Positions 4,701 to 25,574 of a stretch of 42,522 bases of DNA are shown here, one piece after another. Source of the stretch: Magnetococcales bacterium (GTDB taxonomy: Bacteria; Pseudomonadota; Magnetococcia; Magnetococcales; UBA8363); assembly GCA_015228815.1 (NCBI GenBank), contig JADGCV010000034.1:1-42522 (forward strand), read 5' to 3'. Position 1 is the first letter of the stretch; the number at the start of each line of letters is the position of its first letter. Below the pieces are notes generated by a model. The model did not search any database. It was given only the letters and a program-made list of their open reading frames with translations, and was not told the DNA's origin. The translations under genes were made by a program, and so were the position numbers.

Positions 4701-5255
4701 CGTCTTCGGGAGTTCTTTTCCCTGGGGCAGTGGCGTGATCTCAACCATGCGGCCCACGCCATCAAGGGAACGGCCGCCACCATCGGCGCGGCAACCCTGG
4801 CGCAAATCGCCGGGGAAATCGAATCGATCGCCAATCGGCCCGAGGCAATCGTGAACGACAAGAATGCCTTCGACGCCCTGCTGAATCGATTCTCGACGAT
4901 ATTGGAAACGGTCGTCGGCGGAATTCGCGCCGCCATGGAAGATCGTGGAGGAAGAAACGAATCGATGCCGCTCCCGGATCACCCCGCCCCTGTCGATCCC
5001 GAACAATGGCGCCTGGCCCGTTCGTTGGCGGCCCGACTGGCACACCTGTTGACCGGAAACGATCCCGCCGCGGAAGAAATGGCGGAACAATTGCAGCGTC
5101 TTCTGGCAGGCACTCCCATGGAAACGACATGCCGAACCGTTCTCCATCATGCCGCCGCCTTCGATTTCTCCGATGCCATCCAGGCACTTGAGGTCCTGAA
5201 TCACACACTCGACCATCACAGAAAGGAGGACCATGAACCGCCTCCCAGGAAATGA
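1734..5255 (+). CDS. Hybrid histidine kinase, PAS-PAS-HisKA-HATPase-REC-REC-HPt
   Basis: A 1173-residue cytoplasmic phosphorelay kinase of BarA-like layout without transmembrane segments. Order: helical N-terminus (about 1-150), PAS with PAC (about 155-265; NDKFCEISGYSREELIGQN), second PAS (about 270-390), HisKA with phospho-acceptor His420 in NMSHEIRTPMNG, HATPase_c with N, G1 (DTGIGIP) and G2 (GTGLGLAI) boxes, receiver 1 (Asp709 in LLLDWHMPDMDG), receiver 2 (Asp852 in VLMDIQMPGMDG) and an HPt domain (His1008 in AHAIKGTAATIG). A final stretch of about 70 residues resembles the tail of the kinase at 6152-8020. The ATG at 1734 is preferred over a TTG at 1725 that overlaps the FIST stop. The kinase follows the FIST gene directly and overlaps the downstream binding-protein gene by 23 bases, so the three are probably co-transcribed. 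The output regulator is not encoded within it; the HD-GYP regulator at 8076 is a candidate. Confidence 0.95.
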   Translation: MHPLLKNQLRRVLGIERPEDIEGISSILGDLAQHDGLPPPIVGLLTRFGLLLDRVDQSYRQFDRDLDLRARSLELSSQELASANERLREEAALQKSAIAALRETANQLLNNEDHQDLEKDADNLDKLSTLVARIVEERSIAQRDLERQKFALDQHAIVSITDTKATILYANDKFCEISGYSREELIGQNHRLVKSEVHPTTLFQDMWQTITQGKVWHGEVCNRAKDGRHYWVAATIVPLLDPQGRPEQYIAIRTDITLQKTMEAQLLEQRRFLQSITDAMGEGVYCLDEGGHCTFMNPEAQRLLGWTLDEIRHRPFHDVTHYLDSQGNPLPRERCPIMQSVTSGTTYRSENDWFIRRDQTRFPVAIVSVPLMEKTRVTGSVSVFQDISRRMEVINLLQTAKEEAEHASLLKSNFLANMSHEIRTPMNGIIGLSHLLMQTELTPVQRDLLAKIDHSSRSLLGIINDILDFSKIEAGKLTIEHIPFDLTQLLQEITPVIQAKIREKGLELIFDLSSGLPAVLIGDPLRLRQILLNLVANAVKFTEKGTILIAMKEEIKDHETLLVGFKVQDTGIGIPPEKAAQLFQPFVQADSSSTRRYGGTGLGLAICRQLVELMGGSISVESIPGLGSTFHFRLPLKIGQQAPPVQCVPEEMNNTRILVVDDSEAVRSILGDMLRQFGLVVALADSGPSALSHLSTEGSIPAIDVLLLDWHMPDMDGVELLQRMERLGLRRPCTIMMTAHGLEPMRTALGSHRVAAILEKPITPSLLFETLLRVLELPQRDRSIRPAPVPETSPRRSSFGNKRVLLVEDHAINQEVALGLLELMGITATVAGSGEEAVGHLRRHRYDIVLMDIQMPGMDGYQTTEMIRRDLALERLPIIAMTAHAMAGDRERCLAAGMNDHVAKPIDPGILQQVLTRWLDDDATLHPLPFPIIEPIPSLPVIPSDDSIVFPDTIPGIERDLALSNVSGNRVLLHRILRNFADQHAQSDERLREFFSLGQWRDLNHAAHAIKGTAATIGAATLAQIAGEIESIANRPEAIVNDKNAFDALLNRFSTILETVVGGIRAAMEDRGGRNESMPLPDHPAPVDPEQWRLARSLAARLAHLLTGNDPAAEEMAEQLQRLLAGTPMETTCRTVLHHAAAFDFSDAIQALEVLNHTLDHHRKEDHEPPPRK

Positions 5256-6060
5256 AGCGAAATCCTTCATCCGGCGTTTACTCTTCCAGGAACCGATGCG
5301 TTTTCTTCTTCCGATGATCTTCCTGTGCGCTCCTCCAGTGGCATTGGCGGAGGTCATCACCCTGCGGGCCGACTCCTGGTGTCCCTATAATTGCGACCCG
5401 GAATCGGACCGGCCAGGCATCCTCATCGAAATCGCCAAGGAGATTCTTGGTCCCGCCGGTCATTCCATCGATTACCGGCTCATGCCGTGGAGCCGAACCC
5501 TGAACGAGGTTCTCAAGGGGAACATTTCCGGAGCGGTCGGCGTCATCCCTTCGGAAGCCCCCGAACTGATCTATGGCGCCAATCCGCTTGCCTACGACAA
5601 ACCCGGCTTTGCCTTCAACAAGGGAATGGAATTTTCCTATCGCGGTCCATCCTCGCTTGATCCCTTCAGAATCGCGGTCATCCGGGATTATCATTACGAC
5701 GACGGCGAAATCGATGCCTATTTGCAGGCCCATCAAACCGATTCCACCCGCATCCAGCCCAACGCCGGCGATAATGCCGGGATGGCCAATCTGAAAAAAT
5801 TATTGTCCCACCGCGTAGACCTTGTCCTCGACAGTCATGATGTCCTCGCGCATCTGGTGCATCGGCATCACCTTGGACAAAAGGTCGAACTTTACGCGAT
5901 CGATCGGTGGACAGGAATCCATATTGGTTTTTCTCCCGTCAAACCCGAATCCCGGAACCTGGCCAACCTTCTGTCCTCCGGTATTCCATCCCTGCGTCGG
6001 CAGGGAAGACTGGCTGAAATCTTCGCCCGCTATGGCCTTTCGGATCGTCAGGAGCCATGA
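5233..6060 (+). CDS. Periplasmic solute-binding protein, family 3 (amino-acid type), without transporter genes
   Basis: A 275-residue SBP_bac_3-type protein that would bind a small organic solute in the periplasm. The hydrophobic stretch MRFLLPMIFLCAPPVALA followed by E is a signal peptide core. The mature N-terminus carries ADSWCPYNCDPESDRPGILI, with a Cys pair likely to form a disulfide, then the usual EIAKEIL and YRLMPWSRTLNEVLKG segments. The ATG at 5233 has AAAGGAGG at 5222-5229 but leaves a long n-region; an internal ATG at 5296 would give a more ordinary signal peptide. There are no permease or ATPase genes nearby, and the gene lies between two histidine kinases, so a role as sensory co-receptor rather than in transport is inferred. 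The ligand is unknown. Confidence 0.85.
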   Translation: MNRLPGNEAKSFIRRLLFQEPMRFLLPMIFLCAPPVALAEVITLRADSWCPYNCDPESDRPGILIEIAKEILGPAGHSIDYRLMPWSRTLNEVLKGNISGAVGVIPSEAPELIYGANPLAYDKPGFAFNKGMEFSYRGPSSLDPFRIAVIRDYHYDDGEIDAYLQAHQTDSTRIQPNAGDNAGMANLKKLLSHRVDLVLDSHDVLAHLVHRHHLGQKVELYAIDRWTGIHIGFSPVKPESRNLANLLSSGIPSLRRQGRLAEIFARYGLSDRQEP

Positions 6061-6089
6061 CGAATGATTTTCCAGGAGGCTCCCTGACG

Positions 6090-6155
6090 ATGAGACAACA
6101 CGCCATGTTCCGATGGGGCCCGATTCTTCCATTCTTCAATGCGGGTCACCGATGA
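6090..6155 (+). CDS. Possible 21-residue leader peptide coupled to the downstream kinase
   Basis: A short frame starts at ATG 6090, ten bases after a perfect AGGAGG (6074-6079), and codes 21 residues (MRQHAMFRWGPILPFFNAGH then R). Its stop TGA (6153-6155) overlaps the ATG at 6152 of the kinase gene as ATGA. The kinase start itself has no good ribosome site, so translation of the leader could deliver ribosomes to it. No peptide family is recognised and the peptide may have no function of its own. Alternatively the kinase starts at an in-frame ATG at 6113, inside this leader. Confidence 0.4.
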   Translation: MRQHAMFRWGPILPFFNAGHR

Positions 6156-8020
6156 ACCATCCGATCATTCCAGGAATGCGCCGCTCCCTGATCGTCACGT
6201 TCACTTTGTTGATGCTGGCGTGTGCCCTCGTTCTCATCCCGTTGTTGACCGGCTTTCAGATATGGAAGGTTTATCTTCGTGAACTCAACCATCAACAGGA
6301 AACCCTCCTGGCCATGGGTGATGCCTTCCGTCATCCCCTGGAGGTTGCGGTCTGGAATGAAGATTCGGTCAGCATCGAGGCCCAACTGGGCAGCATCGTC
6401 CGTTTCCCAGGAATCGCCCGCGCCCGTTTGACGACCGATATTGGAGGCGCCACCGAAGGGACGATTTTTTCCGCCGGGATGCCGTCCACCGGGGGAAAAC
6501 GACTCTTCATCCGCCTGCATGAGCCTCATGAGGTTGCCAATCGACGCATTCTGGGCGAACTCGAACTGGAGGCGAACCGATCGGTCCTCAACGAAAAACT
6601 GACGAATGAAGCCTATGAAATCGTCATCCTGGCATCGTTTCAGGTCTTGTGTTTAAGTCTGCTTCTGACCATTGCCGTGCGCCATCTGGTTTCAAAACGG
6701 ATCGCCCTTTTGGCGCGTCAGGTCGAGCGACTCGGTGACAATCTGGAGTACCAGCCCCTGTCGGAGGCCGAAAGTCCCGATGAACTGGGACTCCTGGCCC
6801 AGGGGATCAACCGGATGCAACTGCATCTGCAACACAATTTCACCGAAATGAAACTGTTGAACGATCAGATCCAGCAGCATCGGGATCGACTGGAGGTTCT
6901 GGTTCAGGAACGAACCACCGCCTTGACAGTGGCCAATCAGGAATTGGCCGCGGCCCGGTTGAGCGCCGAAATGGCCAATCGCATCAAAAGCGATTTCCTG
7001 GCCAACATCAGCCATGAAATCCGTACCCCGATGAATGCCATGGTCGGATTCGCCCATCTGATGCTGCAATCGGAACTGACACCGCGACAACACGAAAACA
7101 TGCAAAAAATTGACGATGCCATCGGCAATCTGATGAAAATTCTTGGGGATCTGCTTGATTTCTCGAAGATCGACGCGGGAGAACTCGCCGTCCATCCCGT
7201 TCCCTTCAACCTGATGGAAATTCTCGGGACATTGCATCGTCATGCCCTGGCCAAGGGGCTCAAGAAAGGACTGAATGTCAATCTCGATGCAGCGACAGAT
7301 TTGCCCCGAACCCTGATCGGTGATCCCGTGCGACTGGGACAGATCATGCGCCATCTGGTCGAAAATGCCATCAAGTTTACCAGCCAGGGTGCCATCCAGC
7401 TGGTCGTCCGGGGCGACATCACCCCGGATCATGTTTTTCACCTTGATTTTTCGGTACGGGATACCGGAATCGGGATTGGTGAAGAACAAATGGCGCACCT
7501 GTTCCAGCCCTTTTCCCAGGTCGATGGTTCGTCCACGCGCCGGTTTGGTGGAACGGGACTGGGACTGGCCATCTGCCGGCATTTGCTGGAGCTGGTCGGC
7601 GGAGACATTCGTGTCGAAAGTGTACCCGGAGTTGGCAGCACCTTTTTCGTGCGGATTCCCTATCCTGTCTGTACCATGGAACATCCCATGCTCGTTCCGG
7701 AATCGCCCAACGCACCTCCGGACGAGGAACGCTTTGCCAGCGGCAAGATCCCTTGCCCGGCAGCCGGAAAAGTCCTTCCTCCGGAGGCGGCAACCGTCGC
7801 CCAGGCAGAAATTCTCATGGACCGTTTGGAATTTCTGATGCAATCGGCCGATCCCGAAGCGGGAGACTGGGCGCGGAAACTGGCGGATCTTCTTTCCACG
7901 ACCACGGTATCCAGTAAGGCGAATGTGGTGTTTCAACTGGCCAACGATTTTGACTTCGACGAAGCCATCAACGCACTCGGATCTCTGCGTCGGCTGTTGA
8001 CGGAGTCGTCCAGGGTTTGA
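6152..8020 (+). CDS. Membrane-bound sensor histidine kinase (periplasmic sensor, HAMP, HisKA, HATPase)
   Basis: A 622-residue inner-membrane kinase. A first span (about residues 11-33, LIVTFTLLMLACALVLIPLL) and a second (about 156-178, VILASFQVLCLSLLLTIAV) bracket a periplasmic domain of about 120 residues. A HAMP linker, a coiled coil and HisKA follow (His288 in NISHEIRTPMNA), then HATPase_c with DTGIGIG and GTGLGLAI. There is no receiver or HPt domain; a tail of about 110 residues resembles the end of the hybrid kinase upstream. The start at 6152 is chosen because it overlaps (ATGA) the stop of a small ORF with a strong ribosome site; ATG 6113 is the alternative. The periplasmic domain may read the binding protein encoded just upstream, and the HD-GYP regulator 55 bases downstream is the likely phospho-acceptor. 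Both links are inferred from position. Confidence 0.92.
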   Translation: MNHPIIPGMRRSLIVTFTLLMLACALVLIPLLTGFQIWKVYLRELNHQQETLLAMGDAFRHPLEVAVWNEDSVSIEAQLGSIVRFPGIARARLTTDIGGATEGTIFSAGMPSTGGKRLFIRLHEPHEVANRRILGELELEANRSVLNEKLTNEAYEIVILASFQVLCLSLLLTIAVRHLVSKRIALLARQVERLGDNLEYQPLSEAESPDELGLLAQGINRMQLHLQHNFTEMKLLNDQIQQHRDRLEVLVQERTTALTVANQELAAARLSAEMANRIKSDFLANISHEIRTPMNAMVGFAHLMLQSELTPRQHENMQKIDDAIGNLMKILGDLLDFSKIDAGELAVHPVPFNLMEILGTLHRHALAKGLKKGLNVNLDAATDLPRTLIGDPVRLGQIMRHLVENAIKFTSQGAIQLVVRGDITPDHVFHLDFSVRDTGIGIGEEQMAHLFQPFSQVDGSSTRRFGGTGLGLAICRHLLELVGGDIRVESVPGVGSTFFVRIPYPVCTMEHPMLVPESPNAPPDEERFASGKIPCPAAGKVLPPEAATVAQAEILMDRLEFLMQSADPEAGDWARKLADLLSTTTVSSKANVVFQLANDFDFDEAINALGSLRRLLTESSRV

Positions 8021-22768: not shown

Positions 22769-23269
22769 ATGACAAGAACCGTTTGCCAGGAGGCGATCGA
22801 CCTGATCAAGAATGCCGAAGGATGTTATCTGACCGCCTATTATTGTCCGGCACATATTCCGACGATTGGCTACGGGCATACCAAGGGCGTCACACCGGCG
22901 GATGTAGCGAACAAAAAAACCATCACCAAGGATGAGGCGGAGAAGTTGTTGCTCAAGGATTTGAGTATCGTTTCCGACCAGGTCGAACACTATGTCAACG
23001 TTGGTCTGTCGGATGAACAGTTTGGCGCCCTGGTCAGCTTTACGTTCAATCTGGGCGCGGGCAGCCTTTCGGAAAGCACTCTTTTGAAAAAGTTGAATAG
23101 TGGCGATTATCTCGGCGCGGCCAACGAATTCGACCGGTGGGTCAAATGCACCGTCAACGGTGCCAAGGTGACACTGCCGGGCCTGGTAAAACGGAGAACA
23201 AACGAAAAAATGCTCTATCTGTCCGGAACCCACATGGATACCGCGATGCCGCAATCGGTCACCTTTTGA
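22769..23269 (+). CDS. Lysozyme, glycoside hydrolase family 24 (phage-type endolysin)
   Basis: A 166-residue muramidase that would cut the glycan strands of peptidoglycan. The active-site pattern of GH24 endolysins is present: Glu17, Cys26 (aspartate in T4 lysozyme, often cysteine in the wider family) and Thr32 within TIGYGHTKGV, followed by FGALVSFTFNLGAG and the C-terminal LVKRRTNEKMLYL. No signal peptide or signal-anchor is seen, so export would need a holin or another route, and no holin or Rz gene is adjacent. AGGAG lies 9 bases before the ATG. The gene may be a domesticated phage gene; no other phage gene is in the window. Confidence 0.9.
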   Translation: MTRTVCQEAIDLIKNAEGCYLTAYYCPAHIPTIGYGHTKGVTPADVANKKTITKDEAEKLLLKDLSIVSDQVEHYVNVGLSDEQFGALVSFTFNLGAGSLSESTLLKKLNSGDYLGAANEFDRWVKCTVNGAKVTLPGLVKRRTNEKMLYLSGTHMDTAMPQSVTF

Positions 23270-24204: not shown

Positions 24205-24559
24205 GTTTTCAATCCTTTCAACGGATGCCGGTCCACCATTCGATCGGCTGCGGGAAAACATATCGCACCAACGATCAATAATCCAATTTTTTATGAAACA
24301 CCGCTCCGTCAGCACGAATGGCGACAAACGCCGAGGCATCAGGATTGTCGATCCGATGTCCATCAATCCCCCTGCACATAGTTCCGTTAATACCTTTCTC
24401 CATTGGTTTTCGTTTTCTTAGAGTGAATTATTCATCATTTCATTAATCAATTGTCTGTAATTTAAAAAAATTTTCAATTTAGCCACTTGTGGTTTGCCCC
24501 GATCTTCGATAATTTTTCCCTGACCTGCTTACAGCCATTCAGCAAGAGGGAGTTCGGAC
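24205..24559. other. AT-rich divergent intergenic region
   Basis: About 355 bases between the divergent DyP peroxidase and His/Cys-rich genes. The part from about 24410 to 24490 is distinctly AT-rich (runs such as TTTAAAAAAATTTTCAATTT) against a GC-rich background, and probably holds promoters for one or both genes. No confident -35/-10 pair could be fixed, and no gene is supported. Confidence 0.45.
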
Positions 24560-24967
24560 ATGAAAATCGTCACTCTGGCCATCGCCGCCGGTGCGTTCGC
24601 CGCAGTGGGATTCGCGGACGTCACCCAGGCCCACGTCCCCTACCACGATGCCATACCCCATACCCACCACGCCCATCCTGGAGATTGGAAATCGGGAGGG
24701 TGGACCCAATGGCACAACCAACCCGGCTTCACCCAACTGGGCAGCGTCGGAACCCAGCTTTTCCAGGTCCACGAAAAAGGAGTCGTCGGTTACCATCCTC
24801 ATGCCTGGCATGGGTACTCTGGCTACAGCTACTTTTACGGAATTTCCAGCCCCATGATGGGCAAGGTCTGTACCTGCCCCCACTGCAAGGAAGCCAGCGC
24901 CCAGTGTACCTGTCCCCCCGGCGCCTGCTCCTGCCCCCATCACCAACATCATGCCGAGAAAAAATGA
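24560..24967 (+). CDS. Small secreted His- and Cys-rich protein, probable metal binder
   Basis: A 135-residue protein of no family I recognise. Residues 1-24 form a clear signal peptide (IVTLAIAAGAFAAVGF core, cleavage likely after TQA). The mature part begins HVPYHDAIPHTHHAHPGD, has tryptophan- and tyrosine-rich middle segments (HPHAWHGYSGYSYFYG), and ends with seven cysteines in CTCPHC and CTCPPGACSCP followed by HHQHH. About 16 histidines and 7 cysteines in about 110 residues suggest binding of copper, zinc or nickel in the periplasm or outside; this is inferred from composition only. GAGGGAG lies 6-7 bases before the ATG. A second His-rich secreted protein follows 150 bases later. Confidence 0.8.
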   Translation: MKIVTLAIAAGAFAAVGFADVTQAHVPYHDAIPHTHHAHPGDWKSGGWTQWHNQPGFTQLGSVGTQLFQVHEKGVVGYHPHAWHGYSGYSYFYGISSPMMGKVCTCPHCKEASAQCTCPPGACSCPHHQHHAEKK

Positions 24968-25118
24968 TTTCCAACGATGAAAATGATTGGCAGACGTTCC
25001 CGCGAAAGAGCGATGATTCGTGACCGGGACTCAAAGTCCAGGCTGTCCTGACCGGCGCCATCAAATCCCTTCAACAGACAACACCATTCAAAAACTACTA
25101 AAATATGGGGTAATCACG

Positions 25119-25466
25119 ATGAGAAAGATGTCAAACGTTTCAACCCTCGCCGTTCTGTCTCTGGCGGGTGCCATGTTTGTCGGATCCAGCTTTACCGCCG
25201 CGACCCCTGCCAAGGCCGATGTCGTCACGGCGACCATCCTTGCCGGTTCCGCCCTGGGATTGACCCTGTGGCATGATCCCTGGCCGGTGCGCGCCCTCGT
25301 CCGTCCGATCGCCTACGTTCTTGATGTACCCAATCCCATCAAGACCCATACCCATTGTCACGGCTATTACGGTCATTACGACCATTATGTCCACGTCGGT
25401 GTTCAACCTCATTGCCACTCCGGCATCATGGCTACCGAACAGACGCCCGCTCCCGCGGCGAAGTAA
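25119..25466 (+). CDS. Small secreted His-rich protein
   Basis: A 115-residue protein without a recognised family. A signal peptide (STLAVLSLAGAMFVGSSFTA core) is likely cleaved after PAKA. A hydrophobic stretch VVTATILAGSALGLTLW follows, and near the C-terminus a dense His cluster THTHCHGYYGHYDHYVHV then PHCHSG, with two cysteines. The tail is Ala/Pro-rich. The ATG at 25119 gives a proper signal peptide; the longer frame from 25020 does not. The ribosome site is weak (GGGG 9 bases upstream). Together with the preceding gene it suggests a pair of exported metal-binding proteins. The gene ends before a strong hairpin. Confidence 0.75.
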   Translation: MRKMSNVSTLAVLSLAGAMFVGSSFTAATPAKADVVTATILAGSALGLTLWHDPWPVRALVRPIAYVLDVPNPIKTHTHCHGYYGHYDHYVHVGVQPHCHSGIMATEQTPAPAAK

Positions 25467-25478
25467 TCCTGACCTGAT

Positions 25479-25518
25479 CCCCGGTCGCGTTGCGATTCGA
25501 ACCGCAACGCGACCGGGG
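25479..25518. terminator. Perfect 16-bp hairpin between convergent genes
   Basis: CCCCGGTCGCGTTGCG (25479-25494) pairs perfectly with CGCAACGCGACCGGGG (25503-25518) around an 8-base loop. There is no T run on either side, so it is not a textbook intrinsic terminator. Its place between the convergent His-rich gene and lon suggests it blocks or insulates transcription from both. Confidence 0.7.
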
Positions 25519-25574
25519 CAGGCCCGGGACGCATCAACCTTTCCATGATTCGCCCGGATCCGGTATCAACAGGT

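Follow-up and report, generated by a model that had tools for sequence, protein, structure and literature searches.

A two-gene unit built on lineage-specific modules, one product rich in His and Cys, as a candidate envelope-attached metal buffer in Magnetococcales

To our knowledge, dedicated bacterial metal stores that lie outside the cytosol are few, namely Csp1 and the bufferins. Csp1 (TIGR04401), an exported Cys-rich metal store, is a four-helix bundle that leaves the cytosol by the Tat route, and genomes with bufferins encode an MNIO enzyme, usually beside the precursor gene. Bacterial metallothioneins of the SmtA/BmtA type (PF02069) are small proteins with dense CxC cysteines and with histidines, and those that are known are cytosolic. 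Bufferins (the DUF2282/PF10048 family and Buf2) are described in PMC12452194 as small, Sec-exported, Cys-bearing proteins that chelate periplasmic copper. Here we describe two adjacent small genes, A and B, from an uncultured relative of the magnetotactic cocci, which resemble each of these systems in part: A shares small size and dense CxC cysteines with histidines with the metallothioneins (a likeness in features, with no homology implied), it is small, apparently Sec-exported and Cys-bearing like the bufferins as PMC12452194 presents them, and A and B together can be likened to Csp1 in their putative metal role. Unlike metallothioneins, however, A has a signal-peptide-like start and an envelope module; unlike the Tat-exported bundle Csp1, neither protein has an NCBIfam match; and in contrast to bufferins, no MNIO enzyme was detected in the genus that carries A and B, and the two proteins match no family.

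The window analysed is a whole contig (C34; 42,522 nucleotides) of a 4.2-Mb genome with a stated completeness of 99.2%. Gene A (24560..24967, plus strand; ATG at 24560, stop codon ending at 24967, 135 aa) encodes a signal peptide, His patches, a QWHP/GTQ module and a Cys/His tail, and gene B (25119..25466, plus strand; stop codon ending at 25466, 115 aa) encodes a signal peptide, an LGG module and a His/Tyr tail. The most likely start of B is the ATG at 25119, for which the list of open reading frames gives a GTG at 25020 instead, and purine-rich stretches resembling ribosome-binding sites precede both genes. Judged by eye, both N-termini resemble Sec signal peptides with AxA-type cleavage near residue 24 in A and near residue 33 in B, the probable signal peptides being residues 1-24 of A (24560..24631, plus strand) and 1-33 of B (25119..25217, plus strand), and we infer from this that both proteins are exported by Sec. 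The sequence-only reading of this DNA had reported two adjacent genes for small, exported, unrecognised proteins; the reading frames lie where it placed them, A then B, and neither protein fits any Pfam or NCBIfam family.

A and B behave as real genes and are under purifying selection: dN/dS was 0.17, 0.12 and 0.21 for A in three pairs (a fourth being saturated) and 0.14, 0.09, 0.26 and 0.10 for B in all four. Identity to the window copy ranges from 38 to 59% for A and from 59 to 69% for B. The search for co-occurring pairs that had been proposed for this locus recovered both genes, adjacent, on the same strand and with A before B, in six of the eight genomes of the genus (its own included), at a spacing of about 64-151 bp. 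Orthologues of A and B were found in neither G003 (74% complete) nor G007 (97% complete), and beyond the genus, in 40 other genomes from the order and 13 from the phylum, the two proteins had only partial matches. A pattern scan for B over contigs of 84,980 species, which detects only sequences carrying WHDPWPV or YD[HS]YVHVG, returned 37 stretches, from which five MAG loci were confirmed (nWRX3bin12, HA3dbin1, DCbin4, nWRX3bin6 and DCbin2), all titled 'Magnetococcales bacterium'; as given in PMC6783814, DCbin4, HA3dbin1 and DCbin2 belong to one proposed family-level group ('WMHbin1') of Magnetococcales. Neither plasmid sequences nor PADLOC and PHROGs contained a match to A or B.

Ahead of the pair, where an AT-rich promoter region had been claimed, the 5' region is AT-rich and is conserved across the six pair-bearing genomes. 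It includes a TTTCATTAAT element (24438..24447, plus strand) that is identical in all six and a conserved 30-bp promoter-like block (CTTG...TTCGATAATTT; 24486..24515, plus strand) that precedes A in each. This block, for which we infer promoter activity, occurs in one exact copy per pair-bearing genome, and a search allowing up to two mismatches found it in neither G003 nor G007 and gave no control hits; a simple sigma-70 scan misses it and lists two other sites at about chance level. Because the block is found solely before A, it is unlikely to be a regulon element, and we rejected that reading. Beyond B, where B and Lon converge, the intergenic stretch contains a hairpin with a perfect 16-bp stem (25479..25518, unstranded), and a folding energy of -47.1 kcal/mol (z -6.9) was obtained for 25464-25535. 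This agrees with the strong hairpin noted earlier at the end of the pair, although no T-run follows and a simple terminator scan omits it; it is possibly a terminator that lacks a T-run.

A heme peroxidase had also been placed beside the pair, and the window does contain one, a DyP-type enzyme (PF20628) on the opposite strand and divergent from the pair, but its position is not conserved: DyP adjoins the pair in none of the five other orthologous loci, for which 2-16 kb of upstream sequence were examined, and we therefore rejected a link between the two. A phage-type lysozyme/endolysin gene (PF00959, phrog_7; 22769-23269) lies between a signalling gene and the DyP gene. Lon adjoins the pair in the window, G004 and G005, and among the genes listed we recognised by eye Pst/PhoU-like genes near the pair in G001 and G006 and hydrogenase-like genes in G002. 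The order and orientation of the pair are thus kept across at least two different neighbourhoods, and at the six loci no metal-handling gene was seen to neighbour it consistently.

The sequence-only reading had further ascribed dense His clusters to both proteins and seven cysteines in CxC/CxxC-like spacing to one of them. Measured against the other proteins of the window (4064 residues, 3.1% His, 1.0% Cys), mature A (111 aa) is enriched in both residues, with 16 His (binomial P 3e-7) and seven Cys (P 1e-4); mature B (82 aa) is enriched in His (nine; P 9e-4) and shows no enrichment in Cys (two; P 0.19). The seven Cys of A fall within 22 residues (P 1e-4) and form three CxC motifs (P 0.003; 200,000 residue shuffles in each case), a clustering beyond that expected from composition, and lie with an HH-x-HH motif in the Cys/His tail (24869..24964, plus strand), which is supported by alignment, composition and shuffles. 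The tail of B (25347..25463, plus strand; alignment and composition) is rich in Tyr, Gly and His. Among the orthologues the two proteins part ways: each of the six A orthologues has 7-8 Cys (P ≤ 2.5e-4) and 8-16 His (P ≤ 0.03) in its mature part, whereas B orthologues hold 5-13 His and at most two Cys, and in two of the six the His enrichment is not significant (P 0.11). The Cys description of A and its retention among orthologues consequently stand, as does the His clustering of A and of the window copy of B, while for B orthologues it holds less well; since the A orthologues keep their clusters, the loss of clusters that would have counted against a metal role does not apply. Cys 104, 106, 116 and 123 and His 52 and 127 of A are invariant in all six, further invariant residues including W43, G47, W48, Q50, G61 and G64-T65-Q66; in the A proteins of G001 and G006 two CxC motifs have lost their second Cys, and a His run adjoins the first. 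Invariant in B are most of D34-A59 (LAG-ALGL-LWHDPWPVRA) and HGYYG-YD-YVHVGV.

Matches of A to proteins other than its orthologues centre on residues 35-75, with E values down to 1.2e-7, and define the QWHP/GTQ module (residues 39-73; 24674..24778, plus strand; profile and pairwise matches), a segment of 35 residues that in A begins about 14 residues past the predicted cleavage site, placing QWHP/GTQ near the mature N-terminus. We built a profile of this segment (A4) from 20 rows, four of them A orthologues and A itself one row, leaving out the near-duplicate orthologues G005 and G006 and matches without an assigned locus. It matched 41 of 48 Magnetococcales genomes, with up to six matches per genome (tandem modules counted singly), and none of 251 other sampled Pseudomonadota genomes. 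Negatives outside the order, for this and the other modules, refer to Pseudomonadota only, at a cut-off of E 0.001 with about 21-27 first-look candidates scored per genome, and because A4 and the corresponding profile for B (A7) contain window segments, the window's own scores are partly by construction. No Pfam or NCBIfam family covers the GTQ module; a PDB sequence search with it gave chance-level stretches of 11-13 residues, mostly in antibody chains (best E 0.079), and of 33 pattern matches in viral contigs none was confirmed, a 35-residue query being hardly confirmable by tblastn.

We examined 47 distinct GTQ-module proteins, a subset of the matches for which loci were fetched (G006 merged with G001). 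Under a crude rule, all 47 begin like proteins with a signal peptide, and 38 end in an OmpA-type C-terminus, recognised with a profile derived from members of that set; 14 of these 38 carry a lipobox-like sequence by regular expression only. Pfam confirmed PF00691 in five of five module representatives and placed TSP3 above cut-off in three of the five. The nine proteins that lack OmpA comprise one cut by masked bases, three with Lys-rich tails and five that are A and its orthologues. Like the OmpA-domain envelope proteins of the order (PF00691, often with TSP3 repeats, PF02412), A combines a signal-peptide-like start with the module near the mature N-terminus, but in place of an OmpA domain and TSP3 repeats A carries His patches and a Cys/His tail, PF00691 being absent from A and B in the Pfam scan. 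Because the module is common to OmpA-type relatives, A looks like an envelope-attached protein with a His/Cys tail where its relatives carry OmpA. Three of the 47 proteins, all OmpA-type, contain three tandem modules (L089 4855-5895, L090 4225-5211 and L091 90-1064), and the module therefore behaves as a repeatable unit. In G031 the gene immediately after a small Lys-tailed GTQ-module gene (L088 4770-5237) is a Tat-type Csp1 gene (L088 5309-5764; identified by TIGR04401, E 1.5e-45). Another Lys-tailed module protein, L086, runs off its contig, and the adjacency, seen in one of the two Lys-tailed relatives with downstream sequence, is a hint only.

B likewise opens its mature part with a shared segment, DxxTATxLGGxALxxxLxHxxxP, here termed the LGG module (residues 34-63; 25218..25307, plus strand; profile). 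The A7 profile (13 rows, three of them B orthologues and B itself one row; the doubtful L015 was left out, as were L017 and L025, in which no module is visible) matched 18 of 48 Magnetococcales genomes and none of the 251 other sampled Pseudomonadota genomes. Since pairwise matches of B to non-orthologues are weak (E no better than 1.8e-5 within the genus and 4.9e-4 outside it), its membership in the family derives from the profile. One of the six B orthologues hit PF14863 at E 0.033, short of that family's cut-off, and we put this down to chance. Most other LGG proteins have tails rich in Pro, Gln and Tyr, and some small ones resemble B, for instance through SSHHHGYY in L123 7140-7430. Of 28 distinct LGG proteins in the loci retrieved, 11 are immediately preceded by a gene for a protein with an 'HPxDYWW...PSxxGxWDY' segment, a count by regular expression that misses some cases, such as one upstream of the LGG gene of L013; LGG genes are thus often the second genes of small secreted pairs. 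A/B is a repetition of this layout with a metal-ligand-rich first partner, B differing from other LGG proteins, whose mature N-terminus it shares, in its His/Tyr tail and in having A as its partner. In seven of the eight genus genomes, all but G004, the positions of the profile matches point to two LGG-module genes separated by about 1.1-1.5 kb, such duos lying at L123 about 5660-7430, L125 about 5840-7383 and L050 5817-7266. The HPxDYWW segment itself was found in 33 of 48 Magnetococcales genomes and in none of the 251 other sampled Pseudomonadota genomes. It occurs, as HPxDYWWxxxPSxxGxWDY, in small signal-peptide-bearing proteins (e.g., L124 5698-6102 with 4871-5701, and L126 4942-5532 with 5498-6070), the two tested having no Pfam match, and homology between the GTQ and DYWW modules was not supported (hhalign probability 0.6%). 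The GTQ and LGG modules are, as seen so far against the 251 sampled Pseudomonadota genomes, restricted to Magnetococcales.

Comparison with described metal-binding families gave no counterpart for either protein. All six A orthologues returned no Pfam family at E up to 1, bacterial metallothionein (PF02069) included, and neither the A orthologues nor B had an NCBIfam match, so that TIGR04401 does not recognise them; as no Csp1 (TIGR04401) was detected in the eight genus genomes either, we rejected A and B as Csp1. PF03860 was found in none of the 48 genomes of the order, but it is an insensitive probe here, given that the G031 Csp1 protein itself scores 16.3 bits, below the cut-off of 20.4. 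The MNIO family (PF05114) was absent from the eight genus genomes, the control search being positive in two of 14 known genomes, and DUF2282 (PF10048, the Buf1 family) matched neither A nor B. With neither Csp1 nor MNIO detected in these eight genomes, no such system visibly occupies their niche; this leaves room for another and proves nothing. In PDB sequence searches A retrieved one COX17 chain at chance level (E 2) and B retrieved nothing, and AlphaFold models from six-row alignments (pLDDT 39.7 and 40.3) had no confident fold and were too poor for use. Open-licence PMC literature, searched by subject rather than by module sequence, held nothing apparent on these proteins or modules.

We consider it about an even prospect that A and B form a self-contained two-gene unit, an envelope-attached extracytoplasmic metal buffer, the architecture being observed and the metal function proposed from it. 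Both proteins would be exported by Sec; the module of A would keep it in the compartment of its OmpA-type relatives, the outer membrane/peptidoglycan layer, where its CxC/His tail may, much as a metallothionein does, chelate a soft or borderline metal, with Cu(I) or Zn(II) as the likeliest candidates. The short hydrophobic LGG segment of B could bring it into contact with a membrane, and B would add weaker His sites and partner A; together the two would buffer surplus metal at the envelope. We count for such a buffer the retention of the pair and its order in six of eight genomes, the purifying selection, the private promoter-like block, the ligands of A retained in all six orthologues with Cys clustering beyond composition, the predominance of OmpA-type proteins among module proteins (38 of 47), the failure to detect Csp1 or MNIO in the eight genus genomes and the Csp1 gene that follows the G031 module gene. 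Against it we count the absence of a metal-binding family match, the non-significant His content of B in two of six orthologues and its low number of Cys (two at most), the two broken CxC motifs of G001 and G006, the lack of a consistent metal-handling neighbour, the poor structure models, the omission of the conserved block from the simple promoter scan, and the fact that the G031 relative adjoining Csp1 lies in another family and has a Lys tail rather than a metal tail. Periplasmic cysteines may, moreover, oxidise to disulfides.

In a thiol-redox or oxidative-stress role, the three CxC motifs of A would act as a periplasmic disulfide or peroxide buffer with B as partner and metals uninvolved; the divergently adjoining DyP gene of the window would fit, but DyP does not adjoin the pair at the other five loci, neither A nor B matches a redox family, and the many histidines of A would be left without a role, which makes this account improbable. 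Somewhat better placed, though still unlikely, is the view of A and B as components of the envelope or surface matrix with low complexity, cross-linked through Cys and self-assembling or adhering through their His/Tyr/Gly tails, with any metal incidental. In other proteins these modules are joined to OmpA parts (38 of 47), Lys-rich tails (three of 47) or Pro/Gln/Tyr-rich tails, all of them structural-looking and devoid of metal ligands, and both the models without a confident fold and the Tyr/Gly/His-rich tail of B suit it; what speaks for metal instead is that CxC clustering and invariant Cys near His, typical of metal sites, are present in all six A orthologues, and that the Lys-tailed and OmpA-type relatives have no such Cys/His tails. 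We give little credence to a metallochaperone pair that hands Ni or Cu to a specific envelope metalloenzyme: two partners with different ligand sets and the hydrogenase-like genes seen by eye near the pair in G002 accord with delivery, but that neighbourhood occurs at one of six loci, the others having Lon (three) or Pst/PhoU-like genes (two), and low complexity with a variable number of ligands is more in keeping with buffering than with a specific chaperone. Least probable by far, to the point of being negligible, is an MNIO-modified copper-binding RiPP, in which A would be a precursor exported by Sec and have its Cys turned into heterocycles: A is small, apparently Sec-exported and Cys-bearing, as PMC12452194 has it for bufferins, yet no PF05114 was found in the eight genus genomes against two of 14 in the control, A and B fit no Pfam family, and this reading is unsupported.

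The envelope-attached metal buffer would be a known functional kind, an extracytoplasmic His/Cys-rich store, which in A/B is carried on uncharacterised, lineage-specific modules. A broader and rather doubtful proposal is that Magnetococcales combine short N-terminal envelope modules of their own (QWHP/GTQ, LGG and HPxDYWW) with interchangeable tails in a kit of which A/B would be the metallothionein-like version, a metal sponge docked at one particular site of the envelope together with its cognate partner. If true, bacterial metal storage would gain a new class of system, and a new mechanism of envelope docking would come to light in the magnetotactic cocci. A separately evolved, envelope-attached metal store would add a new design beside Csp1 and the bufferins, and the modules pose the question of whether the module alone decides where a protein is located. 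The lineage modules, one of them present in 41 of 48 Magnetococcales genomes, point to an uncharacterised side of the cell envelope in bacteria known for magnetotaxis.
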